From: a virus
Virus record (IMG/VR): IMGVR_UViG_3300009788_000113
Coordinates: 1-58,311 of that record
DNA: 58,311 nucleotides
Reading direction: 5' to 3' (one strand)
This document shows positions 2,386 to 57,857 of this stretch, in pieces. How positions within the stretch are numbered: position 1 is the first letter of the stretch; every line of letters starts with the position of its first letter. Made by a program: the position numbers and the translations under genes. The notes under the pieces are model-generated. The model saw only the letters and a program-made list of their open reading frames with translations. It ran no database searches and was not told the DNA's origin.

Positions 2386-2712
2386 GTGGTTGAGCCGCAT
2401 ACGCAGCAGATTAAGTTGCTGTCGCACCTCGTGCATGAAATCGTGCAGGAGGACGGGGGCGTGGCGCTGTCGTTGCATGGGCTGCACACGATCAAATCGG
2501 AGGATATGGAACAACTGGTGGAACCCGCGCAGATATCGGATGGGACTCCCAAGCGGGTGCGCAGGTTTATACATTCGCTCAAGGGGAGGAACCTGAAGAG
2601 GAAAGATATGGTGATATGGGCCGCGAAGGATGAGGCGGGGAAGGTGTGGATAGGCGCGGGGTTTACGGATGAGGCATTACCAAGGGAAACTTTAGAAGAG
2701 GAGGCTGCATGA
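2386..2712 (+). CDS. Hypothetical 108-residue protein
   Basis: The frame uses a GTG start and its end overlaps the next ATG (ATGA). I do not recognise the protein. It has an amphipathic N-terminal helix, a Lys/Arg-rich middle (KRVRRFIHSLKGRNLKRKD) and an acidic tail. An exact copy of the dispersed 14-bp motif (2534-2547) is read in the sense direction here and encodes SDGT. The upstream ribosome site is weak and a later start is possible. Confidence 0.65.
   Translation: MVEPHTQQIKLLSHLVHEIVQEDGGVALSLHGLHTIKSEDMEQLVEPAQISDGTPKRVRRFIHSLKGRNLKRKDMVIWAAKDEAGKVWIGAGFTDEALPRETLEEEAA
2534..2547 (+). repeat. 14-bp motif, exact copy
   Basis: TATCGGATGGGACT, inside the 108-residue gene at 2386-2712, sense orientation, read as ISDGT. 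Confidence 0.9.
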
Positions 2713-3143
2713 TGACTCAAGCAACGTTGAACTCAGGACAAGTTGCAGGAGACGGAAATGCATTGCGTGAACAAGAGATCATAAAAAGAGAGCATCTTGC
2801 AACACCGGGGCCTTGGATGGCACAGGAATGTGGTGAAAAGTGCAGTGCAATAGTTATAGGTGTGGCTTACGCTATAGGAGATGAAGTTTGTAAGGAGGGC
2901 CTTTCAGGATGGCCTGAGTGCTATGATGAAGATGGTAATGATTTAATATCGCGTGAATGTCACATTTGTGAGTTGGGTGACTATTCTGAAAATTCTAATT
3001 CTAATGCTGATTTTATAGTTCACGCTCGTGATGATATTGCTTTCCTTCTTAAACGGTTGAATGCGTCACGCGCACATGTGGCTTTGTTGCAACAGAGAGT
3101 GAAAGAGCTTGTGTCTGGATTGACACCTGAGGAAACTGCGTAA
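2709..3143 (+). CDS. ATPGPW-motif phage accessory protein
   Basis: This 144-residue product carries ATPGPW (residues 31-36) and, near the end, ADFIVHARDDIAFLL. That pairing marks the widespread Ead/Ea22-like phage proteins of unknown function. There are two start choices, ATG at 2709 (overlapping the upstream stop) and ATG at 2712. The gene is clearly richer in A and T than its neighbours and lacks their heavy AGG/GCG codon use, which suggests a recent insertion into the virion module. A distant relative lies at 36512-36832 on the other strand. Confidence 0.75.
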   Translation: MMTQATLNSGQVAGDGNALREQEIIKREHLATPGPWMAQECGEKCSAIVIGVAYAIGDEVCKEGLSGWPECYDEDGNDLISRECHICELGDYSENSNSNADFIVHARDDIAFLLKRLNASRAHVALLQQRVKELVSGLTPEETA

Positions 3144-9341: not shown

Positions 9342-9893
9342 GTGTTGCACGCAATTATAGCGGCGAGCGTCTTGGCGGGGTGCGTGACAGCGAGCCTACC
9401 CGAGGACACATCGCCAAACTTATCGGATGGGACTGTCTTGGAAGAGATGGATTCGGATGTTGAGTCATTGATATCCTCGATCAGTGAGGCGGCGCGGACG
9501 ATGGAGGAGTGGGATGTGCAGCGGCAGATGTTCGCGCCGGGGACTCCGGAGAGGGAGCAGTACGATAAGATCGTGGCCGCGATTGCGGCGATGACCATAG
9601 AGAAGATCAGGGACGGGTACGCGCCGGAGTGGACGCCCTCTGTTGGAGCGATTTCGACCGTGACCACGGTGGGCGGAGGCGGAGGGTTGTTGGCTGCGGT
9701 GGCGGGGTGGTTTAGGGAGAGAAGGGGGAGGCTGGGAAACGTGAGCGCTATGGAGGAACTGGCGACGGCTATCGTTGAAGGGGAGCACCACGAGGGCTTG
9801 TTAGCGAGCGATAAGATATCGAGCGCACGGGCGAGGCAGCTTGTCAAGAGAATAGCGGAGACCCATGATGGCGAGAGCACGCAGAAAAACTAG
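9342..9893 (+). CDS. Lipoprotein with C-terminal membrane segment
   Basis: I chose the GTG at 9342, 7 nt after GGAG. It gives a short signal peptide with lipobox LAGC (VLHAIIAASVLAGC), so the mature protein would be lipidated at Cys15 and held in a bacterial membrane. A second hydrophobic stretch lies at about residues 105-125 (STVTTVGGGGGLLAAVAGWF), and the region between is helical and acidic. It may be a spanin, a superinfection-exclusion lipoprotein or a lysis helper; the sequence does not decide. An exact 14-bp motif copy encodes NLSDGT. Confidence 0.75.
   Translation: MLHAIIAASVLAGCVTASLPEDTSPNLSDGTVLEEMDSDVESLISSISEAARTMEEWDVQRQMFAPGTPEREQYDKIVAAIAAMTIEKIRDGYAPEWTPSVGAISTVTTVGGGGGLLAAVAGWFRERRGRLGNVSAMEELATAIVEGEHHEGLLASDKISSARARQLVKRIAETHDGESTQKN
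9421..9434 (+). repeat. 14-bp motif, exact copy
   Basis: TATCGGATGGGACT in the lipoprotein gene, sense orientation, read as LSDGT. Confidence 0.9.
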
Positions 9894-10304: not shown

Positions 10305-10871
10305 TCAGGGCTCCCTTGTTTGAGTCCCATCCGATTCATTTGCTTTGGCGTGGACGAACATTTCTAGGTCTGGGAATTCTTTAAGGATCTGTTGGTTAGT
10401 GTGTTCGGTTAGTCCTATTCTGATATACTCCATGTGTACTTCTATTATTGACTGGTTTATGTTTCCAAGATCGCCTTCTTCGATTTGCTTCACAAAGTAC
10501 TCCTCTAGTTCTGCATCGCCGCATGCGCCAAGAAGTAATAAGGATGAAATGTTGGTCAATAACGGGAGTTCATTCGCGTATACTTCTCGAAGTCTGTCTG
10601 ACGATACATATAGTTGCCGAGGGCTCCATTTTGAAGTTCCGCTCACCCTCCACCAGTATGGAATTATTGCGGTTGCTGTGAGTAGCTGGTCGCTAGTTAT
10701 TAACGGATACCTTGAAAGGTCTGTGATCTTCGTTGGCTCGTTACTATCGTGGTTGTTGATGATGAACGTGAAATCCATTGACACTGGGATGTCTTTGTCT
10801 TCTGCTGCTGACTTTCTTAAAACTGCCACCGCGATGTTTAGTGTCTTGAATGGTAGATCGTTTATGTTCAT
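10305..10871 (-). CDS. Hypothetical 188-residue protein
   Basis: The start overlaps the stop of the co-chaperonin gene (ATGA at 10868-10871), so the two are translationally coupled. The sequence is soluble and mixed alpha/beta, with no catalytic motif I recognise. Its near C-terminal residues ESDGTQTREP are encoded by a 13/14 copy of the dispersed motif. Base composition is more balanced than in the neighbouring G-rich region. Coupling to groES suggests a protein that is folded with, or regulates, the chaperonin, but this is only a guess. Confidence 0.75.
   Translation of the reverse strand: MNINDLPFKTLNIAVAVLRKSAAEDKDIPVSMDFTFIINNHDSNEPTKITDLSRYPLITSDQLLTATAIIPYWWRVSGTSKWSPRQLYVSSDRLREVYANELPLLTNISSLLLLGACGDAELEEYFVKQIEEGDLGNINQSIIEVHMEYIRIGLTEHTNQQILKEFPDLEMFVHAKANESDGTQTREP
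10323..10336 (-). repeat. 14-bp motif, 13/14 copy
   Basis: Read on the - strand as AATCGGATGGGACT, near the 3' end of the 188-residue gene, sense orientation, encoding SDGT. Confidence 0.85.
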
Positions 10872-11227
10872 GGCGATGGTTCCTGTGGGGGGAGGATGAG
10901 GAGGATTTCGGGTTCGGTTAGGACTTTGTACTCTTGCTCGTCGATCGTGATATCGACGCCCGCGTAGCGAGAGTAGACGACGCGATCACCCACGGAGATC
11001 GTCATGGGGCGGTGCCAAGTTCGAGGTTGTGCAATGTTTGAATCGGCAGCGGTTTCGAGGTGGAGGCCGGGGCCGCAGGAGAGGACGGTGCCGATGGTGG
11101 GCTTCTGCTGGGAGTCCTTGGGGATGTGGAGCGCGCCCGCCATAGTTTCGGCGTCGTCTTCGCGGAGGAGGACGTTGTTCGAGAGGAGGCGCAGGGCGGC
11201 GGGGAGCGAGGGGGTGTCATGGGACAT
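10868..11227 (-). CDS. groES: GroES-like co-chaperonin
   Basis: At 119 residues it is slightly longer than bacterial GroES (about 95-100). It shows the family order: an N-terminal strand with LLSNNVLLREDD, a mobile-loop region (AETMAGALHIPKDSQQKP), GTVLSCGPG, a VGDRVVYSRYAGVDI beta hairpin, and a C-terminal EPEILLIL strand. It would cap a GroEL ring, probably the host one, to fold capsid or other phage proteins, like T4 gp31. A 20-residue insertion lies in the roof/hairpin region (about residues 60-80). No phage GroEL is present. Confidence 0.88.
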   Translation of the reverse strand: MSHDTPSLPAALRLLSNNVLLREDDAETMAGALHIPKDSQQKPTIGTVLSCGPGLHLETAADSNIAQPRTWHRPMTISVGDRVVYSRYAGVDITIDEQEYKVLTEPEILLILPPQEPSP

Positions 11228-11805: not shown

Positions 11806-12372
11806 TCAAGCGGGGTTGAACAGAGGGATGAACAATTGTAGCTTTCCGAGGGTGGGGATGCGCAGGGACGCGCCCCGGCGGCGGGGGAGGAGGCGTTCTG
11901 AGAGCCAGCGGCCCTTCGTGTGGGGGTTCCCGTACTTGGAGAAGATGGCGCGCATGTGGATGGGCAGGAGACGCGCGCGGAGGGAGGATAGGGCGTCGTC
12001 GCGGACGTTCCATGTGGACTGGAGGGGAATGGATATGAGCCATTCGAGCTTGTAGGGCCGGGGCTCGTATTCGGCGAGGCGGGAGGAGTGCGTGTCGTAG
12101 TTGGGGGATGGCTCGGTGGGGGCGTAGGAGAAGGAGAAGACGAGCCAGGGGTGGAAGCCCGATGCGTGGGGCTGCTCCATCATGCCCAGCGCGGCGCGGC
12201 CGTTCACGCGGTAGTTCGTGGAGCGACATTTATCGGATGGGACTTTCATGCGCGGGGCGTGTTGGATGGGGGACGTGATGATCTCGATGGGCGAGCCGTA
12301 ATCGACACGCTCGACATTGTGAACAGGGCGGATATTCGCCTCACACTTAGCCTCGAACAAAGGTTCTTTCAC
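11806..12372 (-). CDS. Hypothetical 188-residue protein
   Basis: A GTG start follows AAGGAAG, which also codes the last residues of the preceding gene. The product is Arg/Pro/His-rich with motifs such as FHPWLVFSFSYAPTEPSPNYD and KYGNPHTKGRWLSERLL, and looks globular. I recognise no family. An exact copy of the dispersed motif lies antisense in it and is read as KVPSDK just after an internal Met that could be an alternative start. Confidence 0.7.
   Translation of the reverse strand: MKEPLFEAKCEANIRPVHNVERVDYGSPIEIITSPIQHAPRMKVPSDKCRSTNYRVNGRAALGMMEQPHASGFHPWLVFSFSYAPTEPSPNYDTHSSRLAEYEPRPYKLEWLISIPLQSTWNVRDDALSSLRARLLPIHMRAIFSKYGNPHTKGRWLSERLLPRRRGASLRIPTLGKLQLFIPLFNPA
12231..12244 (+). repeat. 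14-bp motif, exact copy
   Basis: TATCGGATGGGACT, antisense inside the gene at 11806-12372, where the complement encodes VPSD. Confidence 0.9.
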
Positions 12373-12721: not shown

Positions 12722-13291
12722 CTATCCGGCGATGAGTTCTTGGATGAAGTCTTCCTTGTCCCTGCGCTTGCGCACGGTGTCGCCCTGTTTCTTTTCAGTG
12801 TCGCGGATGTTCTGCTTGAGGCGGACCTGGACGATGGATTGGGCGGCCTCTGCTTCGTCGAGTTTGGTCTGGACGAAGGCGACTGCCTGTTCGATGTCGG
12901 GGCTCTCTTCGCCGGTGAAGCCCTTGAGGCAGCCCTTGAGGCGGTCGCGCGAGATGCGCACGCGGATTTGTTGATTGGAGGGGAGGGCGGCTTCGGCGGA
13001 TTCGTCGATGGGGAGGATCATCGGCTGGCCCTTGAAGGTTAGTTCGCCTACGTTGGGGTCGTCCGCGTAGCGGTAGTGGAACTGGAAGACGATGGCGGGG
13101 AGTTCTTGGGCGGGGTTGCCGTGGCGGAAGGTGCCATCTTCGGCGGTGAAGGCAACGAGGTCGGCGGTGTATTCCTTTTCGCCGGGGCCTTCGTCTTCGT
13201 AGGGCCACTTGCCGAGGCCGCCGTAGCCCATGTTGGCGTTGGCGGTGTTGAAGCGGGCGACGAGTTTGCCGAGGGATGCGGATACGCTCAT
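12722..13291 (-). CDS. Candidate ssDNA-binding partner of Sak4-like ATPase
   Basis: I chose the ATG at 13291, which overlaps the stop of the ATPase gene (ATGA), giving 189 residues. The N-terminal two thirds are beta-rich (ELPAIVFQFHYRY, GELTFKGQPMILPI), compatible with an OB fold; the C-terminus is a charged helix. In many phages a Sak4/AAA_24 ATPase gene is followed by a single-strand-binding protein of the DUF669 type. Position supports that role but sequence alone does not prove it. Confidence 0.6.
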   Translation of the reverse strand: MSVSASLGKLVARFNTANANMGYGGLGKWPYEDEGPGEKEYTADLVAFTAEDGTFRHGNPAQELPAIVFQFHYRYADDPNVGELTFKGQPMILPIDESAEAALPSNQQIRVRISRDRLKGCLKGFTGEESPDIEQAVAFVQTKLDEAEAAQSIVQVRLKQNIRDTEKKQGDTVRKRRDKEDFIQELIAG

Positions 13292-14298
13292 GCGGGTTCT
13301 CCTTCTGGTTGGATCATTCGGTTGCGGGCCTTTGAGTATTCGTCTTCGAGTTGCGTCCATGCGTCACGAGATGAGAGCTTGAGGTCGGAGGTGAAGGCGA
13401 CGCGGCGCTTGGCGGCGTTGCGTTGGTCGATGTGCTCGAAGGTGAGGTAGTGAACGGGGCGTGTGCCTGATTCTCTTCGTGTGCGGGGTTTTCCGTTGCC
13501 GAGTAACTTGGGGGTGCCGTCGAGGTTCTTGACTGCGACATCTTCTTGGAAGGATTCGCGGCGGACTTCGACGACGGCGACGAAGGAGCAGACAGGGTAG
13601 ATGCGGTTCCAGAGCTTGTCGGAGATGGTGGGCACGTTCTCTATGTAGCGGCGGTGCTCGCCCTCGCCCTCGATCTTGTCGCCGAAGTGGACGACGTAAC
13701 AGACGCCATAGCCCTTGGAGTGGAGTTCGATACCGAAGTCGAGGAGGTGATCGTAGATGGTGCCCCATGCCTGCTGGCCGTGGAGTTCGCCGAAGGTTTG
13801 CTTGCCGAAATATTCTGTGACCCAGGGCTTGCACATGCGGATGCAGGTGGTGAGTGTGTCTATGACGATTATCTTGGGGCGGGCGGGGTCGTTGTCGTCC
13901 GCCATCTGTTCGAGGATCTTCTTCTGTTCGAGGAAGGCGTTCCAAGTGGCTTTTACTCGTTTGAGGTGGACGGGAAAACCTTGTTGATCGGAGAGTTCCT
14001 TGTCCTCGTAGGAGTCTTGTTCGCCCGGGTTAGCGCCCTCGGCGGGGTTGCCCTCGGTGTCGAAGCCGGGCCACATCGTCGCGCGGTAGGTGGGGGTGGT
14101 GACGCCGGAGAGGTCGGTGTTGAATATGTAGGCGTCGGGGCATGATTGGAGGAGGGCGGACTTGCCCGAGGAGGATGCGCCGCCGATGACCATGAGTTGG
14201 TTGTGGAGCGGGGGGCACATGAAGATGCCGCCGCCTACGCCACGGAGCTTCCCATACTTCTGCGCGATGGTCTTGCCATGCTCAAGCGTCTGCGTCAT
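13288..14298 (-). CDS. Sak4-like RecA-fold ATPase (AAA_24)
   Basis: The 336-residue product has Walker A GGASSSGKSA at about residues 39-48 and Walker B KIIVIDT near residue 142. DHLLDFGIELHSKGYGVCYVVH matches the sensor strand of the RecA core. This is the architecture of phage nucleotide-binding proteins and Sak4 single-strand annealing recombinases, which load on ssDNA with a cognate SSB. The neighbours (candidate SSB, Cas4/RecB-like nuclease, polymerase) fit a phage recombination module. Confidence 0.8.
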   Translation of the reverse strand: MTQTLEHGKTIAQKYGKLRGVGGGIFMCPPLHNQLMVIGGASSSGKSALLQSCPDAYIFNTDLSGVTTPTYRATMWPGFDTEGNPAEGANPGEQDSYEDKELSDQQGFPVHLKRVKATWNAFLEQKKILEQMADDNDPARPKIIVIDTLTTCIRMCKPWVTEYFGKQTFGELHGQQAWGTIYDHLLDFGIELHSKGYGVCYVVHFGDKIEGEGEHRRYIENVPTISDKLWNRIYPVCSFVAVVEVRRESFQEDVAVKNLDGTPKLLGNGKPRTRRESGTRPVHYLTFEHIDQRNAAKRRVAFTSDLKLSSRDAWTQLEDEYSKARNRMIQPEGEPA

Positions 14299-15247: not shown

Positions 15248-15517
15248 TTATTCAGTGGGGGGAGCGGAGGGGGGTTCGATGGTTTGGAGGGTGGCCTTGC
15301 GCTGGAAGGCGAAGCCGCAGAGCGCGAGCCATGTGCGGAAGCGCGCGATGGCGGGCTTGGAGCCCGTGCGCGCGGTGAAGGCGTCGCGCAGTTCGGTGAT
15401 GGAGTCGAACTCCTGGGTCTTGCACAGATCGTCGATGTGGGGCTTGATTGAATCGCGGATGATCTCGGGCATGAAGGGGCCGAGGGGGTCGTGGTAGGTG
15501 CGGGATGGGTTGGTCAT
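15248..15517 (-). CDS. Small helix-turn-helix-like protein
   Basis: The 89-residue product overlaps the nuclease stop at its start (ATGA at 15514-15517). Residues about 38-70 (ITELRDAFTARTGSKPAIARF, then a second helix) resemble a helix-turn-helix as found in small phage DNA-binding proteins that recognise operators or end sites. A role in regulation or as nuclease partner is possible. It is one of two candidates for a protein that binds the dispersed 14-bp motif. Confidence 0.55.
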   Translation of the reverse strand: MTNPSRTYHDPLGPFMPEIIRDSIKPHIDDLCKTQEFDSITELRDAFTARTGSKPAIARFRTWLALCGFAFQRKATLQTIEPPSAPPTE

Positions 15518-16917
15518 TGGGGGGAGTCCTCTTTGTCTGTGGCGGCATCCTCTTCTTCACGCGAGCGTTGGATGAAGCCTTCTCGAAGGATGATCTCGGG
15601 CCAGTCGCGGACGGGGCAGACGTAGAAGGGGGCGTAGGGGGAGAGGGAGGAGTGGTGGGAGGTCATGCCGGAGCCGACCCGTGGGAAGTTCATTGGGAAA
15701 GGTTTGGCTGTGGCGAGCGAGTAGACACGGGCGGTGTTGTCAAGATACTCGCCCTCAGCGTCCTCGTCAAGTTCGGTGATGGGCGTGATCGAGACGTTGA
15801 AGGTGGGCTGGGCCTCGCGGAGAGGGGCTTCGTCGAGGTAATCGCCCTCGCCCTTGTACCATTCGAGGCAGCGCTTGAGGAAGAGGTGACGCGAGGGCTC
15901 GCCGTGGAACACCTTGGTAGGTTTCTTGTTGGTGTAACTATGCAGATACTCTGTAGCGAGGCTTTCGTTAGTGTGGAATAAATTCTTCGACTTGGGCGGT
16001 TTTCTTACGCCTATCAAACTAAATGTTACTTCCCAACGATTATTACGAAAATGGATTTCGCCGGAGATGCCGGAGCGTTTGCCTTCGGAGATGTAGTGGT
16101 AGGGGCGGTCGCGTTGGCCGAATTTGATGGTGGGCTTCTGGATGGCGATGTGCATCATGCCGCCGCACTTGGCGGAGGAGGGGAGGTGGTAGCGGTCTTG
16201 GATCACGCCTTCTTGGATAAGGTAATAGAGGATGTAGAGGTAGTGGCGGGTTTGGTTTTCGATGGTGCAGGTCTGGAGGCGGTCGTGAGTGGAGGACGTG
16301 CAGGTTTTCCAGTCGAGGATCCAGATGCGATTCGTTTTGTGGTTGTAGACGAGGCGGTCGATGCGGCAGACGAGGGGACACTTGGGGAAGTTGGCGTGAT
16401 CGGTGTATGAGAGGGAGACCTCGGTGGCGAGGGTCTGGAAGTTGGGGCGATCCAAGTAGGGGAGGATGCCGCAGGCGAGCGAGGGGGAGGGGTGGGAGCG
16501 GAGGGAGGTTACGGCCTCGAAGTAGGCCCACGCGGCGTGCGCGGCGCGTTCTTCGCGCAAGAGGAGGTCGTGCATTTTATCGGATGGGACTTGTCGGGAG
16601 GTGCAGAGGCCACGGAGTTCGTCGAGGCGGGCGGTGAGAGCGGTGGACATGAGGCGGTGGACTTCGGAGGCGTCGCGGTCGTAGTGCTCGGCGCGGGCGT
16701 GGAACCACGAGCCGTGGGAGAGGGCGGCGGACCACGAGAGGAAGTGGGCGAGGTTGAGGCGGCGAGTGAGGTAGTATTTGAAGGGGTCGGCGGAGAGGGA
16801 GAGGTCGGAGGAGTGGATGTGGGGGACGGCGGTGTAGAGGCCGTGGGCTTCGAGGTAGCGCTGGGCGTCGAGGGCGCGATCGAGGGGGGGATCAATGGAG
16901 AGGGGGGTGGGGGGCAT
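15514..16917 (-). CDS. PD-(D/E)XK exonuclease, Cas4/RecB-like
   Basis: The 467-residue product carries the core RIDRLVYNHKTNRIWILDWKT at about residues 182-202. It holds the D...D-x-K triad of the PD-(D/E)XK superfamily, with an upstream helix bearing His/Tyr residues. Phage members degrade one DNA strand to make single strands for recombination. It stands two genes upstream of the Sak4-like ATPase in the same operon. There is no obvious four-cysteine iron-sulfur cluster. An antisense exact motif copy lies in the N-terminal third (QVPSDK). Confidence 0.8.
   Translation of the reverse strand: MPPTPLSIDPPLDRALDAQRYLEAHGLYTAVPHIHSSDLSLSADPFKYYLTRRLNLAHFLSWSAALSHGSWFHARAEHYDRDASEVHRLMSTALTARLDELRGLCTSRQVPSDKMHDLLLREERAAHAAWAYFEAVTSLRSHPSPSLACGILPYLDRPNFQTLATEVSLSYTDHANFPKCPLVCRIDRLVYNHKTNRIWILDWKTCTSSTHDRLQTCTIENQTRHYLYILYYLIQEGVIQDRYHLPSSAKCGGMMHIAIQKPTIKFGQRDRPYHYISEGKRSGISGEIHFRNNRWEVTFSLIGVRKPPKSKNLFHTNESLATEYLHSYTNKKPTKVFHGEPSRHLFLKRCLEWYKGEGDYLDEAPLREAQPTFNVSITPITELDEDAEGEYLDNTARVYSLATAKPFPMNFPRVGSGMTSHHSSLSPYAPFYVCPVRDWPEIILREGFIQRSREEEDAATDKEDSPQ
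16578..16591 (+). repeat. 14-bp motif, exact copy
   Basis: TATCGGATGGGACT antisense inside the exonuclease gene; the complement encodes VPSD. Confidence 0.9.
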
Positions 16918-19334: not shown

Positions 19335-19348
19335 TATCGGATGGGACT
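19335..19348 (+). repeat. 14-bp motif, exact copy, intergenic
   Basis: TATCGGATGGGACT in the 162-nt spacer between the tail fibre start (19218) and the end of the holin-like gene (19381). It is antisense to the operon. Confidence 0.9.
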
Positions 19349-40845: not shown

Positions 40846-40854
40846 GCTACCTAC

Positions 40855-41275: not shown

Positions 41276-41550
41276 CTATAACAATGACAGCTTTCGCTAT
41301 AACAATGTCAACTAGGACACGTCAACTTGTCAACTTTTTGATACCGTAAAGGGGGTTCAGCCAGCTTTGGCAGCTTTGCAGCTTTTTTTGGATACTTTAC
41401 ATACGCGCGAGGCGCCTCATCGCGCAATATAGAGAGTATAGAGAGTGTACGACCAAAAAGCCGAAAAAGCTGACAAACCCGACATAATCGGCCCTCACAC
41501 CCCCGTCAGGGCCTATTCCCCACTCCAAAAGCTGTCATCAAAGCTGTCAT
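41276..41550. other. Short-repeat cluster, candidate replication origin
   Basis: CTATAACAATG at 41276 and 41297 (21-bp spacing). GTCAACT at 41307, 41321 and 41329. CAGCTTT at 41288, 41362, 41371 and 41379. TATAGAGAG twice in tandem at 41428 and 41437. AAAGCTGTCAT at 41528 and 41540, the inverse of ATGACAGCTTT at 41284. Such iterons in A/T-rich gene-free DNA beside a helicase gene are typical of an origin where an initiator binds. Confidence 0.6.
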
Positions 41551-41736
41551 CGACCTGGCAAATCCTGCATCTGTTAGCCTAACATCCCCCAGCTATCTAC
41601 TAATACCCCCACCTTCATCATATTTGCAACCCCCCCTCACACCCTCCTACCGCCCTTTCACCCCAACACACCCCTAATCTCCCCGCACTAACATATTCGC
41701 CCCCTCCCCGCCAAACACCCCCTTCTGCACACTAGC

Positions 41737-41750
41737 TATCGGATGGGACT
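41737..41750 (+). repeat. 14-bp motif, exact copy, intergenic
   Basis: TATCGGATGGGACT about 95 bp before the ATG at 41844, sense to that gene. Confidence 0.9.
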
Positions 41751-42125: not shown

Positions 42126-43574
42126 CTATCTAACTAACTCCCGTCGCACGCTCAACCCCTTGACTCCTCTCTTCTCCTCTCCTCTCGTCTGTGAGACGCC
42201 CCAACTCGATAGCTCGCACAGCTTCTTCGGGAAGTGCATCTGACTCACCTGCGCCCTTCTGTTGTCCCTGATCGTGTACCCGTTCTCCTTCTCCCACCAC
42301 CTTCTCAACTCCCTCACCTTGTCGTTATGCACCCACCCCCCTCGATTCTTCACGAAGCAATCATCGAGGAACGCATCAAACAAATTACTTTCCCTATCGA
42401 ACTTCCTTATCACGTCCTGCGACGAACCTGGCATCTCAAACTTCTTCCTCGGATCCTCCTCCGCCTCCAACCGTATCGCCGCATCCACGAACCTCCTCGC
42501 TATCCCCGCCAACTCCCCATCCAGCTTCCGCCCCAACTCGAAGTCCTCTCTCCCCTCGAACGAATTCTCGAACCCCAGCGCGACCATCTTGCTCGATAGC
42601 CCCCTCGCCGTATTCGGTAGCGTCAACATCTGATTGCTCTGCACAATCGGCAGCGCCCTAATCACCACATCCTTCTTCTGCCTCAGATACTTCGCATTCA
42701 CCGTCAACGTATCTTCCCCCAGCACACTCTTAAGCAAGCTGCTCACCCTCTCCCCCGTCCGATTATCCAGATCACTAGCTTCCGAGATACAGAGCACCGA
42801 GCACACATCCACCCCATCCAATCCGAACCCATCCGCCAACTCCTCCATCTTCACCCCAAAGAACATCGGATGGGGCAGCAACCTCTTCAACACCCGCGTC
42901 CCCGATCCCTTCCCGCCTCGCACCTTCCCATACTCCAGCAGCCACTTCGCATACTTTCGCGTCCCCATCAGCGCGTACCCGTACATCCTTTCTCTCAACT
43001 CCGTCCACTTCTCATCCCCCGCGCCCCACTCCTCCATGCACGACTCCCACGTCGGGCACAACGCCTTCTCCTTGAACTCCACTGGCGCTACACACGGCGA
43101 GAAGAACTCCCGTCCCCTCTCCACCACCACATACTCCATCTTCCCCGTCTCCCTCAACTTCGCCGCGCTCGCCCTCACATCCACGAGACAATTCTTGAAC
43201 GCGATCACATGCCCGATATCCGGCTTATCCCCCCCTCCACCCAACCACGTCGGTATCGCCTCAAATTCCCCCCTCGTGATCGCCTCCAGCGCCCTCCTCA
43301 CATTCCTCACCTTGTTGATGTCCGGATGGAACCTCTCCGCTACCTGCACCCCCTCCTTCTCGCTCACAATCTCCTTCGCGTCCTCCAGCATCGTCCACAG
43401 CCCATCCTCCACCTCCGCCACGGTCCTCACGCACCAAACCTTCCCGTCCCACTCGTAGAAGCTCCCCTCGTGCTCATAGAGCATCCTCCCCCCCTTCTCA
43501 TCGGTCCACAGCCCTCCCACCAACTGCCTCGCCACCTTCATCGGCTCCCTCGATTCCAGCGTCAACCCTTGCAT
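42126..43574 (-). CDS. D5-family superfamily 3-type helicase
   Basis: The 482-residue product has Walker A GKVRGGKGSG (about residues 216-225, GxxxxGKGS type as in phage D5-like helicases), then VLCISEASD (Walker B) and sensor stretch PIVQSNQMLTLPNTARGLSS. GREDFELGRKLDGELAGIARR matches the family's next helix, and the winged C-terminal domain has FVKNRGGWVHNDKVRELRRWW. There is no primase domain at the N-terminus. AGGAGG precedes the ATG. It would unwind the phage replication fork; the nearby repeats may be its origin. Confidence 0.85.
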   Translation of the reverse strand: MQGLTLESREPMKVARQLVGGLWTDEKGGRMLYEHEGSFYEWDGKVWCVRTVAEVEDGLWTMLEDAKEIVSEKEGVQVAERFHPDINKVRNVRRALEAITRGEFEAIPTWLGGGGDKPDIGHVIAFKNCLVDVRASAAKLRETGKMEYVVVERGREFFSPCVAPVEFKEKALCPTWESCMEEWGAGDEKWTELRERMYGYALMGTRKYAKWLLEYGKVRGGKGSGTRVLKRLLPHPMFFGVKMEELADGFGLDGVDVCSVLCISEASDLDNRTGERVSSLLKSVLGEDTLTVNAKYLRQKKDVVIRALPIVQSNQMLTLPNTARGLSSKMVALGFENSFEGREDFELGRKLDGELAGIARRFVDAAIRLEAEEDPRKKFEMPGSSQDVIRKFDRESNLFDAFLDDCFVKNRGGWVHNDKVRELRRWWEKENGYTIRDNRRAQVSQMHFPKKLCELSSWGVSQTRGEEKRGVKGLSVRRELVR

Positions 43575-44931: not shown

Positions 44932-45444
44932 ATGTCCGAACCTATGACAATGCTGAGCCTCGGCCCCGGACTCACCGCCGTCTCACAGGACGACATCTAC
45001 CGCCAACTCTCCATATTCGGCCTCTCCAAGAACGGCGTCTCCTCACTCCTCAAGAACTCCCTCCACGTCCCGCGCATCCACATGCCCAACCGCGAAAAAC
45101 TCGTGGACATAGTTTCCCTGCAACTCGCCTGGCGCGCAGTCAACCGCATAGGCTCCGGTGACTTCTACATGCCCGGTCACCCCTCCGTCACCAAAGGACG
45201 AGTCCCATCCGATAGTCGCACAAGCATCACGCCGCAGGAATTCTACGATAAGTACCCCATCTGGATCTCCGAACTCATGTACGCCCGCCAACTCGACTAC
45301 CGCCAGTTCACTCACGAAATGCAACGCTCGTTCCACCGCGCCGCCGAACGGATGAGTTTCGCCATGTCACGCATGGTGGGCGAAGGATCAAGAAGGTTAC
45401 CCCAGCCCGAACCCCTATCGGATGGGACTCAATATGCCGCCTGA
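44932..45444 (+). CDS. Small-terminase-like or head accessory protein
   Basis: The 170-residue product has AAGGA before the ATG. It holds LSKNGVSSLLKNSLHVPRIH and NREKLVDIVSLQLAWRAVNR, a helix-turn-helix-like N-half, and a helical C-half. Small terminase subunits have this size and HTH head, and the gene lies before terL, but conserved hallmarks are not visible. Two exact motif copies lie in it, one in each direction. Confidence 0.62.
   Translation: MSEPMTMLSLGPGLTAVSQDDIYRQLSIFGLSKNGVSSLLKNSLHVPRIHMPNREKLVDIVSLQLAWRAVNRIGSGDFYMPGHPSVTKGRVPSDSRTSITPQEFYDKYPIWISELMYARQLDYRQFTHEMQRSFHRAAERMSFAMSRMVGEGSRRLPQPEPLSDGTQYAA
45201..45214 (-). repeat. 14-bp motif, exact copy
   Basis: Antisense inside the gene at 44932; the + strand encodes RVPSDS. 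Confidence 0.9.
45416..45429 (+). repeat. 14-bp motif, exact copy, at gene junction
   Basis: Encodes LSDGT at the end of the 170-residue gene and ends 4 nt before the ATG at 45434, which has no other ribosome site. Confidence 0.92.
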
Positions 45445-46183: not shown

Positions 46184-46262
46184 GTCCATTGTCATCATCC
46201 TCCTCCGCTTCGCAGCAACTATCGTCTACATGCGCGAATGCGAGGCTAACTGGGACATCTGA
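45792..46262 (+). CDS. Helical protein upstream of the terminase
   Basis: The 156-residue product has GGAGGAGA before its ATG. Residues 1-35 are Lys/Pro-rich (PPKKAAPKPPKKKTVDELLE), the rest clearly helical and folded (QRDQIAQQVYDLIMETRETL, ESIVIILLRFAATIVYMREC). Its stop overlaps the terL ATG (TGATG). It may be the small terminase subunit or a packaging cofactor; the basic N-terminus would suit DNA contact. Confidence 0.68.
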   Translation: MTAATDTKPKPSSPTSPPKKAAPKPPKKKTVDELLEERVPASRLNNVRTCLRRTQEILSSIPLLAFTRGYQDLLEDMSVEDPPILLGKQRDQIAQQVYDLIMETRETLTPRMTKTALEVIVNCPLLTQSPESIVIILLRFAATIVYMRECEANWDI

Positions 46263-48292
46263 TGTCCGCGAAACCCATTCCATTCCGCCACGAAGACAAC
46301 CCCTGCTATCCCCTCCCTCCCGACTACGACGATCTCACTTCGGAGGGGCAACGGCTCGCGCGCGTCAACGCCTGTCGCCAGTGGACGCTGTGGAACAACA
46401 AAATCCACCCCATCGAGAAGGGCGAAGCCTTCGTGCGCGGCATCGACTTCTTTGATAAATATTATTTGCAGCAGGACCACGACGACGAGGGCAACGTCCT
46501 CTTCGACTCCTACTTCTACGACTTCGACCCCCTGCGCACGCCCGTAGAACACTGGGAATTCATGCGCGCTTCGATTACGAACAAGCGGCTTGCGGGGGTG
46601 ATGCCCCGGGGCGGCGCGAAGACCTCCATGCAGCGCAAGCGCATTATCATGCAGATGATCGCGCGCCCTCGCTATTCCTTCATCTACGCCACGTCTACGA
46701 ACGAACTCGCCGAGCTTACGGGCGAGATGGTCCGCTACCAACTCTACGAGAACCCCCGCATCAACGATGATTGGTCCCCCGAATACGGCGGGCGCATAAA
46801 GCCCGGACGCTCCGAGGGCTCGCAGGGCATGAAGAACTTCGTCCTCTCGAACCGCTCATCCTTCTTCGCCACCTCGGCGGAATCACGGCAGAGGGGTGGG
46901 CGTCCCATCCGATATTTGCTGGATGATCCCGAGTACGACCCCAAGGCGTCCACGTCGATGGAGGTGATTCGTGAGTGGATGGAAACGCTCATATTCAAGA
47001 TCATCATGCCCATGCTCTCGCGCCCCAACGTGGGCATAGATTGGGTGGGCACATTCGTATCCAAGCGCCACTACCTGTGGCATGCCCTCCAAACTAAAGA
47101 GACCACACTATCGGATGGGACTCTAGCAAGGGTTGCTGATGATTCCCGGTTCAACAAGTGGCACCGCCGCATTGCGAGGGCGGCTAATGAGGAGATAGAT
47201 GAAAAAGGCAACAAAGTGCTGGTGTCGTTCTGGCCCGAGATGTGGCCCTCCACCGAAGAGGAGAAGTTGCGGTTGAAGCTGCACGAGGATACGGAGACCT
47301 TGGTGCAGATAAAAGAGAACTGGGGATCCGCCGTCTTTAATGCGGAGATGATGGCGCAGCCGGGCGAGGCGGGCACGAACTTCTTCCCAGAGCTTGACAA
47401 GCGGCTTCATGGGTGGTGGATTGATGAGGGGAGTGCGGATGAGGCGTTTGCGCTCAAGCCTTACAAGTCTAAGAGCATCCTCTGTTATTATGACGGGAAC
47501 ACGGACACACTCATCGAGCGCACGATTGAGGACATGGTGTTTACTTGCTTCATGTTCCAGACAGCGGACACTTCGTATGGGGAGAAGAAAACGTCGGACT
47601 TCAAGGCGTGTGGGCTTTTCCTTGTAGATGAGAATGGCAACCTGCTGATTATGGACCTGTGGGCTGCGCAAGCGAAAGAGGCGATTCTTGTCACCGAGTT
47701 GTTCGGCATGGCCGATCGCTGGCGCTGCCCGCTTATCTGTCCTGAAAAAGTGAAGGAAGGTTCTTCGCTCATTGACTCGATCTCGGAGATCGTGAGGGTG
47801 CGCGCGAGTGACGCGATGGGAGTGGAGTGGTTGCCGACGATCGTTCCTAAGCATCCGGGCATGGCGGAAAAATCGGCGAGGATAGCGGGGTCGCTGTGGC
47901 GGTTCGAGCACGGCAAGATCAAGATGCCGCTGTGGAAGCGGGATGTGTGGCCGTGGTCCACGTTCTATGACCAGATAGAGGGCTTCAATCCGTATGTGAA
48001 GGATGGCGGGTTGGAGCATGATGATCTCATAGATATTGCGCTGGCGATGCCGCAGGCCGTGACAAGGGCGGGGATGTTCGTTAGGATCGGCGACGACGAG
48101 GTTGAGAAGACCCCGTATGAGCGGTTGATGGACGGTGAAACAATAGATCACAAGACGGGGATGAGCCTCATGCACATGGCAGTCTCCCTAGGCATGAGTA
48201 AGGCGGAACTGGATACGCTTGTGGATAGGAGGATGGGGTGGGACGGTGAGGAGCCGCCTATGCGAGCGAGAAGGCAGCACACAGCGATATGA
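46262..48292 (+). CDS. terL: Large terminase subunit
   Basis: The 676-residue product has the ATPase Walker A as MPRGGAKTSM (about residues 113-122), Walker B RYLLDDPEYD (about 216-225) and the nuclease metal ligands in DTSYGEKKTSDFK (about 435) and HDDLIDIAL (about 585). This is the motor that cuts and packs phage DNA into the procapsid through the portal. Two motif copies in opposite directions (46901 and 47109) lie 208 bp apart in it. Base usage changes from C-rich to G-rich on the + strand just between and after them. Confidence 0.93.
   Translation: MSAKPIPFRHEDNPCYPLPPDYDDLTSEGQRLARVNACRQWTLWNNKIHPIEKGEAFVRGIDFFDKYYLQQDHDDEGNVLFDSYFYDFDPLRTPVEHWEFMRASITNKRLAGVMPRGGAKTSMQRKRIIMQMIARPRYSFIYATSTNELAELTGEMVRYQLYENPRINDDWSPEYGGRIKPGRSEGSQGMKNFVLSNRSSFFATSAESRQRGGRPIRYLLDDPEYDPKASTSMEVIREWMETLIFKIIMPMLSRPNVGIDWVGTFVSKRHYLWHALQTKETTLSDGTLARVADDSRFNKWHRRIARAANEEIDEKGNKVLVSFWPEMWPSTEEEKLRLKLHEDTETLVQIKENWGSAVFNAEMMAQPGEAGTNFFPELDKRLHGWWIDEGSADEAFALKPYKSKSILCYYDGNTDTLIERTIEDMVFTCFMFQTADTSYGEKKTSDFKACGLFLVDENGNLLIMDLWAAQAKEAILVTELFGMADRWRCPLICPEKVKEGSSLIDSISEIVRVRASDAMGVEWLPTIVPKHPGMAEKSARIAGSLWRFEHGKIKMPLWKRDVWPWSTFYDQIEGFNPYVKDGGLEHDDLIDIALAMPQAVTRAGMFVRIGDDEVEKTPYERLMDGETIDHKTGMSLMHMAVSLGMSKAELDTLVDRRMGWDGEEPPMRARRQHTAI
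46901..46914 (-). repeat. 14-bp motif, 13/14 copy
   Basis: Antisense in terL, + strand codes RPIRY of the Walker B region. Confidence 0.8.
47109..47122 (+). repeat. 14-bp motif, exact copy
   Basis: Sense in terL, encodes TLSDGTLA. Confidence 0.9.
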
Positions 48293-48630
48293 CGGACGAA
48301 GCGGGCATCTTCCAAATCGGCACATCGCACATCGCGGTGCCTTTATGGCGATATGACGAGATGGCGCGCATCTTCTATTTGCATGAGTCAGGGCTCCTTG
48401 TGGAGACGGAGGGGAGTGTGGAGGGCGTGACCGACGTGTCCACGCCCGATGAGCCTACGCCCTCTCCTCCTGCGCCTAAGCCCGCGATGATAAGTGACAC
48501 GGTGCTGGGCGGCGTACCTGGGTTCCGCGCTACGAACTATGCTAAGGAAATGCAGGACAAACGAAAGGTGGTGCTGGAGAAGGTGGCGGATAATGGGGCG
48601 GCGCAGGTGGAGGTGAAGGATGACGGTTGA
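48289..48630 (+). CDS. Hypothetical 113-residue head protein
   Basis: The ATG overlaps the terL stop (ATGA). The N-half is folded (IFQIGTSHIAVPLWRYDEMA), the middle Pro-rich (PTPSPPAPKPAM) and the C-terminus charged. Between terminase and portal such small proteins are often packaging or head-completion helpers. No family recognised. Confidence 0.66.
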   Translation: MTDEAGIFQIGTSHIAVPLWRYDEMARIFYLHESGLLVETEGSVEGVTDVSTPDEPTPSPPAPKPAMISDTVLGGVPGFRATNYAKEMQDKRKVVLEKVADNGAAQVEVKDDG

Positions 48631-50653
48631 GCTTAATACGCCTGATCTGCCGACTGGGAAGGATCTCGCCGATGTGATGCGGATTCATGCGACCCGTGAG
48701 GGCTTGCGTATGTCAACCCGCATTATTCGTTGGCGATTGGCTCATGCATATCTCAACGGCGCGCGGAGGTTCGTGGCGCAACCGTTTCACAGCGGGCACA
48801 ACGGGTTGCTTGGTTCGGGCATTGTGGCGGCTGCCGAGCTTTCGGAGCGTGACCACAAGCGCGGGCGATTGCCGGTGCAGATGTCCGATCTTATCCGTGA
48901 GATAAACAAAGTGCAGGGGATGTTGGAGGCGTTCAACCTAAAGCCTCACGTTGACAGAGAAGGAACGTCTCTCACTTCGATACAGAACCGCGCTACGGGG
49001 CAGGTGATTCTGGATTCAGTTACAGACACCGAACAGTTGAATTCCATCAAGAGGCGGGCGTCACACATATTTACGACGTATGGGAGTGTAGGGTTGCAGG
49101 GGCATATGGTGGACCATCCTACTATTGGACTCACTAATGACTTCGAGGTGATACACCCGCTCGAACTGTTGTCGTGGCCTTCGTTTGGCATCGACTATAC
49201 GAGACAGACGGGTGTCATGCGAGAGCGGCTTATCCCGTTAGAGAGGTTGAGGCAGCGGTTCGGGAGGCGCATCTCACAGAATGTCAGGAAGCTGGAGACG
49301 TTCGAGCCCATGCACGGCGAGGCGTTGCCGGAGCAGGATTCACTTACATTCGTGGACGAGATGCACGGCAGGAGATTCGCGTCGTCGAACACGTCGATAA
49401 GCGACGCGACGCGGTTCACTGCGGTGCGGGTGAGGGAGTTGTGGATCACGGGCGAGCGCAATACTTGTAAGAGCTATGCGGCGGCGAGTGGTGAGTTCGT
49501 GATTACGGACCAGCGCTTCGAGAATCAGACGGTTTTCTGCCCAATCGGATGGGACTCGTTTATTGATACGGGCGATCCGCACGGGATGGGCATGTTTGAT
49601 CTGTTGTTCTCGATGGTGCGGGAGTTCGAGAGGTTCGTGGAGGATCTGATTGATAATACGAAGGACTTGAACCAGTATCCGGTGGTGATAATGCCGCAGG
49701 CGCAGTTGAATAAGAGAGAGGTTTTAAGGGATGATGGTAAATCGTTGCACTTTACGTTTGCGAGCCCCGATCCTCGATTGGCGGCGGCGGGTCAGTCGTT
49801 CAATCCCATTACGGTTGCTCCCCCGACGCTTGGGGATACGCCGGGGCGGACGGCGGCGTTCCTGAGGGACATCATCCAGCAGACGAGTCCCATCCGAGAT
49901 TTGCTGAGGGAGAAGGGGAGGGTGGATTCGCTGCCGGGGCTCCAGTTCCTGGATGAGAACGATAAGCAGAGCGTGGTGAGCGCGGCAAGGGGGTTTACCA
50001 ATGTGTTCTCGTCGGTGCATCGGTGGGCGTTGGCGGCTGCGACGAGGGAGATGGTGGCGAGTCCGAGGCCGGTGCCGATAGATAGGGTGGATCTGGGGCT
50101 CGTGGGGGCGATTGTGGACTTTGAGAGGGGGACGGTGGATTTCAAGCAGAACCCGCTGCCGGATGTGACGAGGTTGAGGGTGGGAGTGAAAGAGGTAACG
50201 CCTAGGTCGCAGGCGCTGCGGAAGCAGGAGGCGCTGGCGATGTTCACGGCGCAGTTGGCGGACGCGGACAGGCTCATACTGTTGTCGTTGGAGGAAGGGA
50301 TCGACCTAGCGCTGTGGATAGAACCGGAGAAAGCGGCTTATCAGGTGGTGGTGCAGAACATTCTCTCGCTCTATGGGGACGGACAGGCGGGGGGGAGTAT
50401 TGTGGTGACGCCGCATACGGAGAGGCCCGAGTTCCAGTTGCGGGTGTTGGAGGCGTTCATGGGCGGACCGGAGATGCGGGCGGCTTCGGCTGAGGTGCAG
50501 GACTTCTTTATCAGGTACAGGACGGCGCTGCTCGGGTTCATCTCGCCCATCTTGCCGGAGCAAGTGCCGGATCTTCAGGAAAGCGCGTTGATTGCTCAAC
50601 AAACACAAGGTAGACTTGGGCAGGCCCAAGGGGCGCTGCCACAGGCTGTCTAA
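48620..50653 (+). CDS. Portal protein
   Basis: The 677-residue product follows GAGGTGAAGG. The position directly after terL, its length (600-800 for podovirus-type portals) and its features support a portal: an N-terminal wing, a helical stem region with VGAIVDFERGTVDFKQN, and a C-terminal crown with Gln-rich tail. SIKRRASHIFTTYGSVGLQG and EVIHPLELLSWPS match the typical portal core layout. It forms the dodecameric DNA gate at one capsid vertex. Two motif copies lie in it. Confidence 0.82.
   Translation: MTVELNTPDLPTGKDLADVMRIHATREGLRMSTRIIRWRLAHAYLNGARRFVAQPFHSGHNGLLGSGIVAAAELSERDHKRGRLPVQMSDLIREINKVQGMLEAFNLKPHVDREGTSLTSIQNRATGQVILDSVTDTEQLNSIKRRASHIFTTYGSVGLQGHMVDHPTIGLTNDFEVIHPLELLSWPSFGIDYTRQTGVMRERLIPLERLRQRFGRRISQNVRKLETFEPMHGEALPEQDSLTFVDEMHGRRFASSNTSISDATRFTAVRVRELWITGERNTCKSYAAASGEFVITDQRFENQTVFCPIGWDSFIDTGDPHGMGMFDLLFSMVREFERFVEDLIDNTKDLNQYPVVIMPQAQLNKREVLRDDGKSLHFTFASPDPRLAAAGQSFNPITVAPPTLGDTPGRTAAFLRDIIQQTSPIRDLLREKGRVDSLPGLQFLDENDKQSVVSAARGFTNVFSSVHRWALAAATREMVASPRPVPIDRVDLGLVGAIVDFERGTVDFKQNPLPDVTRLRVGVKEVTPRSQALRKQEALAMFTAQLADADRLILLSLEEGIDLALWIEPEKAAYQVVVQNILSLYGDGQAGGSIVVTPHTERPEFQLRVLEAFMGGPEMRAASAEVQDFFIRYRTALLGFISPILPEQVPDLQESALIAQQTQGRLGQAQGALPQAV
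49543..49556 (+). repeat. 14-bp motif, 13/14 copy
   Basis: AATCGGATGGGACT, sense in the portal gene, read as PIGWDS. Confidence 0.85.
49886..49899 (-). repeat. 14-bp motif, 13/14 copy
   Basis: Antisense in the portal gene; + strand reads TSPIRD. Confidence 0.8.
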
Positions 50654-53411: not shown

Positions 53412-53425
53412 TATCGGATGGGACT
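53412..53425 (+). repeat. 14-bp motif, exact copy, upstream of a start
   Basis: Lies between the capsid terminator and the ATG at 53427, ending 1 nt before it. No other ribosome site is visible. Confidence 0.92.
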
Positions 53426-55132: not shown

Positions 55133-55133
55133 C

Positions 55134-57857
55134 GTGCCTCCTGAAAAGCGCAGGCTTGAGACGGAGTGGTCGTTCCCAACAACGAATGTGACGGCGGTGC
55201 GGAGGGGTCCGAGGACGACCGTTCCGGCGAAGCTGCCCAATGGATTGGATGTGGCTTCGCGGTTGGTGGGGTTCGAGGGCTCGTGCGATGTGGCGCTGAG
55301 GCCGAGCAAAGGGTTCAGGATAGTGAGGGAGGCGGACCTGCCGAGCGGGGCGGGGACGTGGGAGGGGAGTACGGTTGATCCGCCGAGTGATTATACGTTT
55401 GTGGACGTGCGCGCGGTGGAGTTGAAGGTGGGAGAGAATGACTTCATATACGGGTTTATGTACAGGACGAGGAGTGTTGCGAAGGGCGTGAATGCGTCGG
55501 ATCATCTGTGGCTTGAGTACAGGATTGTGCCGCACGGGAATTTTACGGTGCTGGAGGTGGACTGGAATATAGCGGCGGCGGCGCAGTGGGACGTGGTGAC
55601 TTCGGGGCGGATTATGTATGTGTTCGTGGAGGGACGGGAGGTTGTCTCGATTGAGATAGAGGATACGTCTGTGTCCCCGGCGGCGGGTGCGGGGGAGCAG
55701 TATCCAGCGGGCGCGTGGGGATTGAATATGGGGCCTGCGGATACGAAGATATTGGGTGGGGAGCAGGGCGCGTTCGCGCCGGGGCCGGGGCAGAGGCCGG
55801 TGTGGAGCACCACGGTTAGTAATTCGATCGCGGGGCTGGATCCTGCGTTTCTGGATCTGTCGGCGGGGGAGACGGCGTTCGGTAGTCTGCGGTTGGTGGG
55901 GCAGAACACGACCGAGTGGCCCGACACTTTCGTTTGGCTTGGGGGGACGGCGTTCTTCCAACAGAACGAGGATATAGACAGGATCGCGGTGCGGACGCCA
56001 GGGTTCGGCGCGTTTGTGCCGGGCGGGTACGGGTTCGCGTACCAGCTTATTAGTACGAAGACGGGCAGAAGGTCGCAGATCACGGATCTGTTGGGCATCG
56101 ACACGACGGCCTTCGATGATCCGGCGAAGGATGATCTGTTCGCTGTCAACATCCTTTACAACACGCAGAAGTTTAATGCGGTGGCGTTTTACAGGAGTGT
56201 GGAGAATCCCAATGACATTCCGGTGCTGAGTATATCTCAGTTGTTCCTTGATAGGGTGTTTGATCTGGTGGACTCCAAGAGCGCGGCGGGGGCGGGCGAT
56301 GCGCTGGAGACGGATGAGCAGCACTCGACGGTTTTCTTCGAGGCGAGTGATAACCGGATAACTTCGCATATGGGGTTCACGGATAGTGATACATATGATG
56401 AGGAGGTGCCGAGGGGCGGGGCGGCGCTGTTGTTTGACGGGACGATGCTCGTGTCGAAGATCGTTCCGCCGCCCGCGAGCACGACGCCCGAAGAGACGCA
56501 GGATCCCGAGGACTTTAATCAGTCGCTGGGGGTGATGCGGTGGTCGTCCTTGAGGACGCAGAGCGTGGAGTTGTTCCCGCCGGAGAACATCTTTGTGCCG
56601 AGCATACCCACGAGCGAGATTATTAGGTTCGGGAGGGTGGGCGATACGATATTGGGCTTTGCGAGGGAGAAGGTGTACCTGATAAGGAGGCAAGGGTTCA
56701 TACTGGATAACCCGAAGGAGATACATATTGGGTTCGGGATTACGGGGGATAGGGCGATGACGGTTGTGGGGCCGATCGTGTATTTCCTTACGCACAAGGG
56801 ATTGAAGGTGGCGGACTCGACGGGCGGGTTGCAAGACGTGGCGGAGATCAACACGATCATCATAGATGAGTGGAGAGGGCAACTTGGGAATGTGAAGCTG
56901 GTTTACGATGCGTTCGCCGGGCTCATCATGGTGCATAACCCCGATCTTGAGAAGATGGTGTGCCTGTGGATCACGAGCGGGAAGATCACCGAGTTCTTCG
57001 ACGCGAACTTCGTAGCCGCGACGGAAGGGTTGTTCACACGCGATATAAGTGATCCTGAGTCGCCGTTTGTGGACAGGGCGTTCCTGTTGCAGACGAGCGG
57101 CGTGGGGACGAGCGCGCTGGGAAGGGTGTATGCGTACGACTTCGAGCGCGCGAAGGCGAGGGTGACATTCTTGGAGGTGACGGGGGATGTGAGGCTGGAT
57201 GTTGGGAGTGTGGCGAGCAACGTGGTTACGACGAGCGGAGGGACGCCGGGCACGGATATTGTGGGCACGACGATGTATGTGTTGGAGACGACGCCCATCG
57301 AGGATATCGGGAGGAAGAGCAAGATCACGGCGGTGAGTGGGCAGGATGTTACGGTGGAGAACGGGTCGCTGTTCAAGACGAATGATCGGGTGGGGATCTC
57401 GCCGGTCTTCTGTAGCGTGGTCACGCCGCCTATCTCGGTGCAGGACGAGGGTGGGTTCGTGTTCGGGCGGAGGGACTTCATGCAGCAGAAGACCATCGAG
57501 GCCGTGGGCGCGGCGTTCACGCGGGTCGAGGGAGCAGCCACATCGGATGGGACCACAGATGCGAAGTTCCAGGGGGTTTACTTCAGGGGGGACGACGAGG
57601 CGGCGTTTGCTACGAGCGTGCCGCAGTTGAAGAACATGGACAAGTTCAGGTCGATTGTGGACGGGTCTTCGCAGTATGACGCGGCGTTCAAGGGGAGCAA
57701 TGTGGAGACGAATATAGGGGGGAGGTTGGGAATCGCGCATGGAGCTCCCTCGATCGGGTTGCAGACGTTCTGCCCCGAGGCGGATTACAGGTTGCTGATG
57801 CTGCGTGTGAAGGGTAAGATCGAAGCGACACAACGAGACAAGAGGCCAGAACCATGA
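55134..57857 (+). CDS. Tail-tube B-like beta-propeller protein
   Basis: The 907-residue product (GTG start) is rich in beta strands and repeated propeller-like blades (WLEYRIVPHGNFTVLEVDWN; GDTILGFAREKVYLIRRQGF; GPIVYFLTHKGLKVADSTGG; AGLIMVHNPDLEKMVCLWIT). This is the pattern of podovirus tail-tube B/nozzle proteins. The blade FGRVGDTILGFA...KGLKVADS...WRGQLGNVKLVYD is typical. It would form the tail nozzle. A 12/14 motif copy encodes TSDGTTD. The stop overlaps the next ATG (ATGA). Confidence 0.75.
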   Translation: MPPEKRRLETEWSFPTTNVTAVRRGPRTTVPAKLPNGLDVASRLVGFEGSCDVALRPSKGFRIVREADLPSGAGTWEGSTVDPPSDYTFVDVRAVELKVGENDFIYGFMYRTRSVAKGVNASDHLWLEYRIVPHGNFTVLEVDWNIAAAAQWDVVTSGRIMYVFVEGREVVSIEIEDTSVSPAAGAGEQYPAGAWGLNMGPADTKILGGEQGAFAPGPGQRPVWSTTVSNSIAGLDPAFLDLSAGETAFGSLRLVGQNTTEWPDTFVWLGGTAFFQQNEDIDRIAVRTPGFGAFVPGGYGFAYQLISTKTGRRSQITDLLGIDTTAFDDPAKDDLFAVNILYNTQKFNAVAFYRSVENPNDIPVLSISQLFLDRVFDLVDSKSAAGAGDALETDEQHSTVFFEASDNRITSHMGFTDSDTYDEEVPRGGAALLFDGTMLVSKIVPPPASTTPEETQDPEDFNQSLGVMRWSSLRTQSVELFPPENIFVPSIPTSEIIRFGRVGDTILGFAREKVYLIRRQGFILDNPKEIHIGFGITGDRAMTVVGPIVYFLTHKGLKVADSTGGLQDVAEINTIIIDEWRGQLGNVKLVYDAFAGLIMVHNPDLEKMVCLWITSGKITEFFDANFVAATEGLFTRDISDPESPFVDRAFLLQTSGVGTSALGRVYAYDFERAKARVTFLEVTGDVRLDVGSVASNVVTTSGGTPGTDIVGTTMYVLETTPIEDIGRKSKITAVSGQDVTVENGSLFKTNDRVGISPVFCSVVTPPISVQDEGGFVFGRRDFMQQKTIEAVGAAFTRVEGAATSDGTTDAKFQGVYFRGDDEAAFATSVPQLKNMDKFRSIVDGSSQYDAAFKGSNVETNIGGRLGIAHGAPSIGLQTFCPEADYRLLMLRVKGKIEATQRDKRPEP
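57541..57554 (+). repeat. 14-bp motif, 12/14 copy
   Basis: CATCGGATGGGACC, sense in the tail-nozzle gene, read as SDGT. Confidence 0.75.

Follow-up and report, generated by a model that had tools for sequence, protein, structure and literature searches.

The IMG/VR virus record IMGVR_UViG_3300009788_000113 (58,311 bp), which was analysed over its whole length and is referred to below as the window, is one member of a large family of tailed phages with genomes of roughly 50–60 kb and carries a short G-rich word, TATCGGATGGGACT, that is dispersed on both strands between positions 2534 and 57554. The genes recognised in the window are those listed in Table 1 together with genes for a family A DNA polymerase, a uracil-DNA glycosylase, and an ERCC4-type nuclease, and none of the annotated features explains the word, as the original prediction, made from the sequence alone, had stated. 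Our recount has identified 13 exact copies, 8 copies with one mismatch, and 4 copies with two mismatches, in exact agreement with the predicted 13 exact and 12 near copies, and two additional copies at 3 mismatches, which retain the GGATGGG core, bring the number of sites in the window to 27. Across these 27 sites CGGATGGG is invariant, as is a C located two bases further on, and the conserved stretch of ~15 bp, (T/A)ATCGGATGGGACTC, holds ~25 bits over 15 positions. Eleven of the sites lie in genes in the sense direction and 8 in the antisense direction (~14 and 10 had been predicted), while the other 8 are located outside the gene calls. These calls leave ~19% of the window uncovered, rather than the 5% assumed in the original prediction, and the enrichment in spacers that it described is real and smaller than claimed. 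The sense and antisense counts are close to those predicted; the variable that matters, as described below, is orientation relative to the chromosome.

Table 1. Copies of the dispersed word and recognised genes in the window.
Feature	Position	Strand	Remarks
Motif copy	2534-2547	+	exact
Motif copy	9421-9434	+	exact
Motif copy	10323-10336	-	1 mismatch
Motif copy	12231-12244	+	exact
Motif copy	16578-16591	+	exact; antisense within nuclease gene
Motif copy	19335-19348	+	exact
Motif copy	22381-22394	-	exact; directly ahead of ERCC4-type nuclease gene
Motif copy	25922-25935	-	3 mismatches, core retained
Motif copy	28065-28078	+	exact; antisense within polymerase gene
Motif copy	28429-28442	-	1 mismatch
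Motif copy	28728-28741	+	1 mismatch
Motif copy	33358-33371	-	2 mismatches
Motif copy	34226-34239	-	1 mismatch
Motif copy	34574-34587	+	2 mismatches
Motif copy	36237-36250	+	exact
Motif copy	37464-37477	-	1 mismatch
Motif copy	40855-40868	+	2 mismatches
Motif copy	41737-41750	+	exact
Motif copy	42864-42877	+	3 mismatches, core retained
Motif copy	45201-45214	-	exact
Motif copy	45416-45429	+	exact
Motif copy	46901-46914	-	1 mismatch; antisense within TerL
Motif copy	47109-47122	+	exact; within TerL
Motif copy	49543-49556	+	1 mismatch
Motif copy	49886-49899	-	1 mismatch
Motif copy	53412-53425	+	exact
Motif copy	57541-57554	+	2 mismatches
Terminase large subunit (TerL)	46262-48292	+	PHROG 38, E 2.4e-32; 25/25 genomes
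PD-(D/E)XK nuclease, AddB-nuclease-like	15514-16917	-	Pfam PDDEXK_1; AlphaFold2 model
Small protein, apparent helix-turn-helix (HTH)	15248-15517	-	sequence alignment; HTH judged by eye, without domain hit
Sak4-like single-strand annealing recombinase	13288-14298	-	PHROG 124, Pfam AAA_24
Unknown protein after Sak4	12722-13291	-	24/25 genomes; without PDB sequence relative
Winged-helix DNA-binding protein (predicted), long C-terminal helix	44932-45444	+	AlphaFold2, predicted local distance difference test (pLDDT) 83; 22/25 genomes
SF3-type (D5_N/DUF5906) replicative helicase	42126-43574	-
GroES-like co-chaperonin	10868-11227		PHROG 3188
Match to PHROG family annotated phosphoheptose isomerase	29934-30344
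tRNA-Arg (tct)	31785-31873

The abundance of the word is far above chance, as had been predicted. Dinucleotide shuffles of the window yield 5.1 matches at up to 3 mismatches, compared with the 27 real sites, and codon-preserving shuffles yield means of 0.22, 0.83, and 2.25 matches at 0, 1, and 2 mismatches, compared with 13, 8, and 4, with a maximum of 6 in total against the 25 real copies at up to two mismatches. Both shuffle schemes thus rule out chance and codon usage as the source of the motif. An artefact of assembly or of a single genome is likewise ruled out, because a contig that is 99.9% identical to the window (G001) carries the same 12 sites at identical offsets and because the relatives have words of their own. 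An RNA element is also ruled out, by the lack of an Rfam match and of any orientation with transcription.

Relatives of the window were reached in IMG/VR through the polymerase and the terminase, and 25 genomes or long fragments were examined. The terminase, the nuclease, and the protein encoded at 48620-50653 of this family have no match in a collection of 50,697 phages, and no isolate was found. Five late proteins are present in all 25 genomes, and recombination and replication genes in most of them. Apart from the near-identical contig G001, none of the relatives examined has the word of the window; they possess dispersed words of their own (viz. CAGTGGGGGT, GTGGGGGGA, GAGTGGGGG, AGCGGGGAA, GGCTTGGGCGGCAA, CTAGTGGGGAA, and GCTGTGGGAGGGGGG), which, when placed in register, have a common TGGG or CGGG core. 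A G-rich asymmetric word of this kind is detected in 25 of the 25 genomes, weakly in two of them (G008 and G023), with a length of 8–15 bp and one copy about every 2 kb round the genome, and the genomic GC of its carriers ranges from 0.41 to 0.67 (0.37 in G036). When loci with a minimum length of 9 kb are considered, a G-rich word of this kind ranks first in over-representation in 61 of the 70 that carry a TerL relative and 43 of the 47 that carry a nuclease relative, by a loose criterion that judges on the word alone. One contig (IMGVR_UViG_3300030397_000948; L294/L295) carries 18 copies of GATGCGGTGCT in 21 kb, 9 on each strand, and one more lineage carries TTTCTGGGGGA. The conservation in relatives that the original prediction had called for is therefore found in two forms: the close relative shares the sites themselves, and in more distant ones the phenomenon persists but the word has changed. 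A literature search for the words of the family returned nothing relevant.

Family-wide, 257 of the 560 sites lie in genes in the sense and 197 in the antisense direction, and 106 (19%) lie outside genes, in genomes that are roughly 90% coding; the spacing of the sites is slightly more even than random. At L150:579-606 two copies face away from each other (ACCCCCACTG...CAGTGGGGGT), and similar pairs are found in L160, L186, L190, and L201. Such back-to-back copies, located 16–24 bp apart, make up an inverted repeat with the potential to fold into a hairpin.

Strong purifying selection acts on the sites, whether these lie in genes or in spacers. Comparisons with the relatives indicate that sites are unchanged in 176 of 270 aligned cases (65%), whereas in the same alignments near-matches are unchanged in 163 of 1066 cases (15%) and words of the same composition in 3219 of 34735 (9%). 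Pairwise alignments, from overlapping and non-independent pairs, give 732 fully unchanged sites in 1210 cases, compared with 238 expected from windows located 20–90 bp away. This conservation is limited to the motif, and it differs little between the two orientations or among sense, antisense, and spacer sites.

The sites are also polar with respect to the chromosome. When the strand of the TerL gene is taken as reference, it bears the majority of sites (~70%) in each of the 23 genomes counted, which are related and hence not independent in this respect. In the late arm, where genes run with the terminase, 229 sites are on the terminase strand and 98 on the other, and in the early arm, where genes run against it, the corresponding numbers are 167 and 66; when the circle is divided into ten bins, a comparable bias is seen throughout. 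The same polarity in both transcription arms indicates that the orientation of the sites follows the chromosome and not transcription. Base composition explains only part of the bias, as 71.6% of sites but 57.8% of non-site GTGGG words are on the terminase strand.

This pattern distinguishes the family words from several known classes of dispersed sequence. The FtsK-orienting polar sequences (KOPS) are similarly G-rich, strand-biased orientation signals, which flip at the terminus and need FtsK; the family word, in contrast, keeps one polarity over the entire circle, and no protein resembling FtsK was seen. The original prediction had likened the motif to the stoperators of cluster A mycobacteriophages, and the likeness holds for number, length, asymmetry, and drift with relatedness, stoperators being a 13-bp asymmetric word with many copies per ~50-kb genome. 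However, stoperators, which an immunity repressor reads, are mostly aligned in one direction with respect to transcription (PMC6550527), whereas ~70% of the family sites are on the terminase strand even where genes run in the opposite direction, and the proteins scanned, most of which are without any match, included no recognisable repressor or integrase. An identity as stoperators is rejected on the grounds of orientation. Promoters and the start-associated sequences or intergenic repeats of actinophages (clusters K, EF, EC, EG, and O) are rejected as well; the latter are also short conserved words repeated within one genome, but they sit upstream of genes (PMC7302621, PMC12614000), whereas most family sites are inside genes on either strand and their orientation ignores transcription.

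The word belongs to the phage. One relative sits in a Myxococcales metagenome bin, in which most of a family member is found on three contigs (L203–L207). Of the 36 copies of GTGGGGGGA in this bin, 29 are located on the three phage contigs, which total 48.6 kb, and 7 in the remaining ~3.55 Mb, where it is not enriched; the reversed control has 12 copies in all. Being confined to the phage contigs in this one bin, the word is probably not a host Chi. Shuffled sequence, host DNA, and loss in relatives had been named in the original prediction as possible grounds for refuting the motif, and none of the three, when checked, refuted it. A sample of 379 genomes from the phylum of the bin contained no further relative, and the bin itself is a weak hint at the host phylum.

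The last 30 bases of the window (58282-58311) recur at ~40-70, and, because these terminal bases repeat and G001 spans the junction, the window maps as a circle of ~58.24 kb; its first ~40 bases are of low complexity. On the + strand of the window the GC skew is mostly positive but strongly negative (to -0.54) at ~40.1-45.5 kb, and this reversal suggests an origin near 45.5 kb with very unequal replication arms. Beside the SF3 helicase gene, the stretch 40500-41735 is without open reading frames of 60 amino acids and contains short direct repeats (41276/41297 and 41528/41540); it is a possible replication origin.

Several proteins were considered as candidate readers of the word. Wherever the region is intact, the genes for the nuclease, the small HTH protein, Sak4, and the unknown protein form an operon in this order; the HTH gene overlaps the nuclease gene by 4 bases, and such a reading frame follows the nuclease gene in every intact region. 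In the PDB, an AlphaFold2 model of the nuclease (pLDDT 86.5) matches AddB of AddAB best (E 5.8e-3, probability 0.97), with RecE and MGME1 next and none of the matches below E 0.001, and by Pfam it is the nuclease part of AddB that corresponds. In AddAB, Chi is read by the helicase-like part. The unknown protein, judging from its position, is possibly the single-stranded DNA-binding protein of Sak4. The predicted winged-helix protein, whose model resembles BldC and lambda gpNu1 weakly and without significance, is an alternative candidate reader. The distance between motifs reflects the general relatedness of the genomes, tracking that between TerL proteins (r 0.84) and between the 48620-50653 proteins (r 0.85), while PolA is an unlikely reader because its distance follows that of the motif poorly (r 0.38). 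The HTH gene next to that of the nuclease fails to vary in parallel with the motif.

We interpret the motif as a phage-owned, Chi-like polarity tag, a reading to which we assign a probability of roughly 0.4. Of the options listed in the original prediction, which had also named a packaging signal, a Chi-like function fits best, and packaging is retained as a rival. Like the Chi sites of bacterial RecBCD and AddAB (E. coli GCTGGTGG), the family words are short, asymmetric, G-rich, and conserved, occur in genes and spacers, and lie to ~70% on one chromosome strand. Unlike them, they are found on the phage and not in the associated bin, are 8–15 bp long and lineage-specific, and accompany an AddB-like nuclease with no recognised Chi-reading helicase subunit. 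We infer recognition by a phage DNA-end-processing machine with a Chi-like outcome. Such a machine, most simply the AddB-like nuclease together with the HTH protein and Sak4, would read the word from one side, upon which degradation would stop and the strand would be handed to Sak4. Phage concatemers exposed by unidirectional replication or by terminase cleavage would thereby be spared and recombination-dependent replication would be fed, while untagged host DNA would be left open to degradation. The more specific proposal that the family encodes a Chi system of its own, in which a dispersed polar self-tag is served by an AddB-like nuclease–HTH–Sak4 pathway and tag and reader drift together, is a tentative one that we consider rather doubtful.

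A number of observations weigh against a Chi-like tag. Words of 13–15 bp exceed known Chi sites in length, and the nuclease is without the helicase-like part, for which no separate subunit was recognised. In the comparison of motif and protein distances no protein stands out after correction and no reader is singled out, and the recognition helix of the HTH protein differs among genomes that have one motif (G012 compared with G014 and G022). The window alone has a weak bias of 17:10, set against a very strong G skew, and the host test consists of one metagenome bin, which is possibly not that of the host. Lastly, phage genomes that bear a recombinase usually avoid host Chi (PMC3784561), although that observation concerns host enzymes, and a non-host word in a recombinase-bearing family is hence better explained as a private signal than as a borrowed one.

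Of the other explanations, binding by a phage protein, e.g., the winged-helix protein, that silences or organises the DNA in a stoperator- or nucleoid-like manner is unlikely, though it accords with the presence of that protein in 22 of the 25 genomes, with its modelled winged helix and long helix, with the modest spacer enrichment of the sites, and with variation of the motif by lineage in step with relatedness, as in cluster A stoperators (PMC6550527). Orientation that ignores transcription, the location of most sites within genes on either strand, and the lack of a recognised repressor or integrase in the proteins scanned count against it. Another account is that the words are lagging-strand start sites, at which a primase or primosome of the phage would load onto the G-rich strand; this strand would serve as lagging-strand template were replication to proceed in the direction of the terminase. 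The single polarity round the circle, the mostly positive GC skew of the window on the terminase strand, and the spacing of ~2 kb, slightly more even than random, agree with priming; but ~30% of sites, conserved to the same degree, have the opposite orientation, for a priming site the word is long, a primase catalytic domain was not recognised, and the sites of the window, few as they are there, ignore the local skew reversal at 40-45.5 kb, so that we regard this account as quite improbable.

A role as packaging polarity sites, to which the small subunit of the terminase or some other packaging factor would bind, seems slightly less probable again: the polarity follows TerL, the motif is tracked most closely by TerL and the 48620-50653 protein, and the winged-helix model weakly resembles lambda gpNu1, but known pac and cos sites are single clusters rather than ~25 dispersed sites, and the two top correlations are only slightly above the others. 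The least probable of these accounts holds that AddAB or RecBCD of the hosts reads the word as its own Chi, and that the phage has accumulated copies to protect itself. The word is indeed G-rich, asymmetric, polar, and dispersed, and some phages over-represent host Chi (PMC3784561). However, it is not enriched in the Myxococcales bin, the one bacterial bin in which a relative was found, a word with a G-run persists across a GC range of 0.41–0.67 in a family that has its own recombinase and nuclease, and a 15-bp word is too rare to work as a host Chi.

Chi and KOPS are dispersed polar signals that are known from hosts and that phages either imitate or avoid. If the Chi-like reading is true, the words described here would constitute a family-wide set of phage-owned tags, drifting by lineage while their positions are kept, and thus a new form of viral self-marking, and the many natural variants of the motif would allow its reader to be identified by matching motif to protein.

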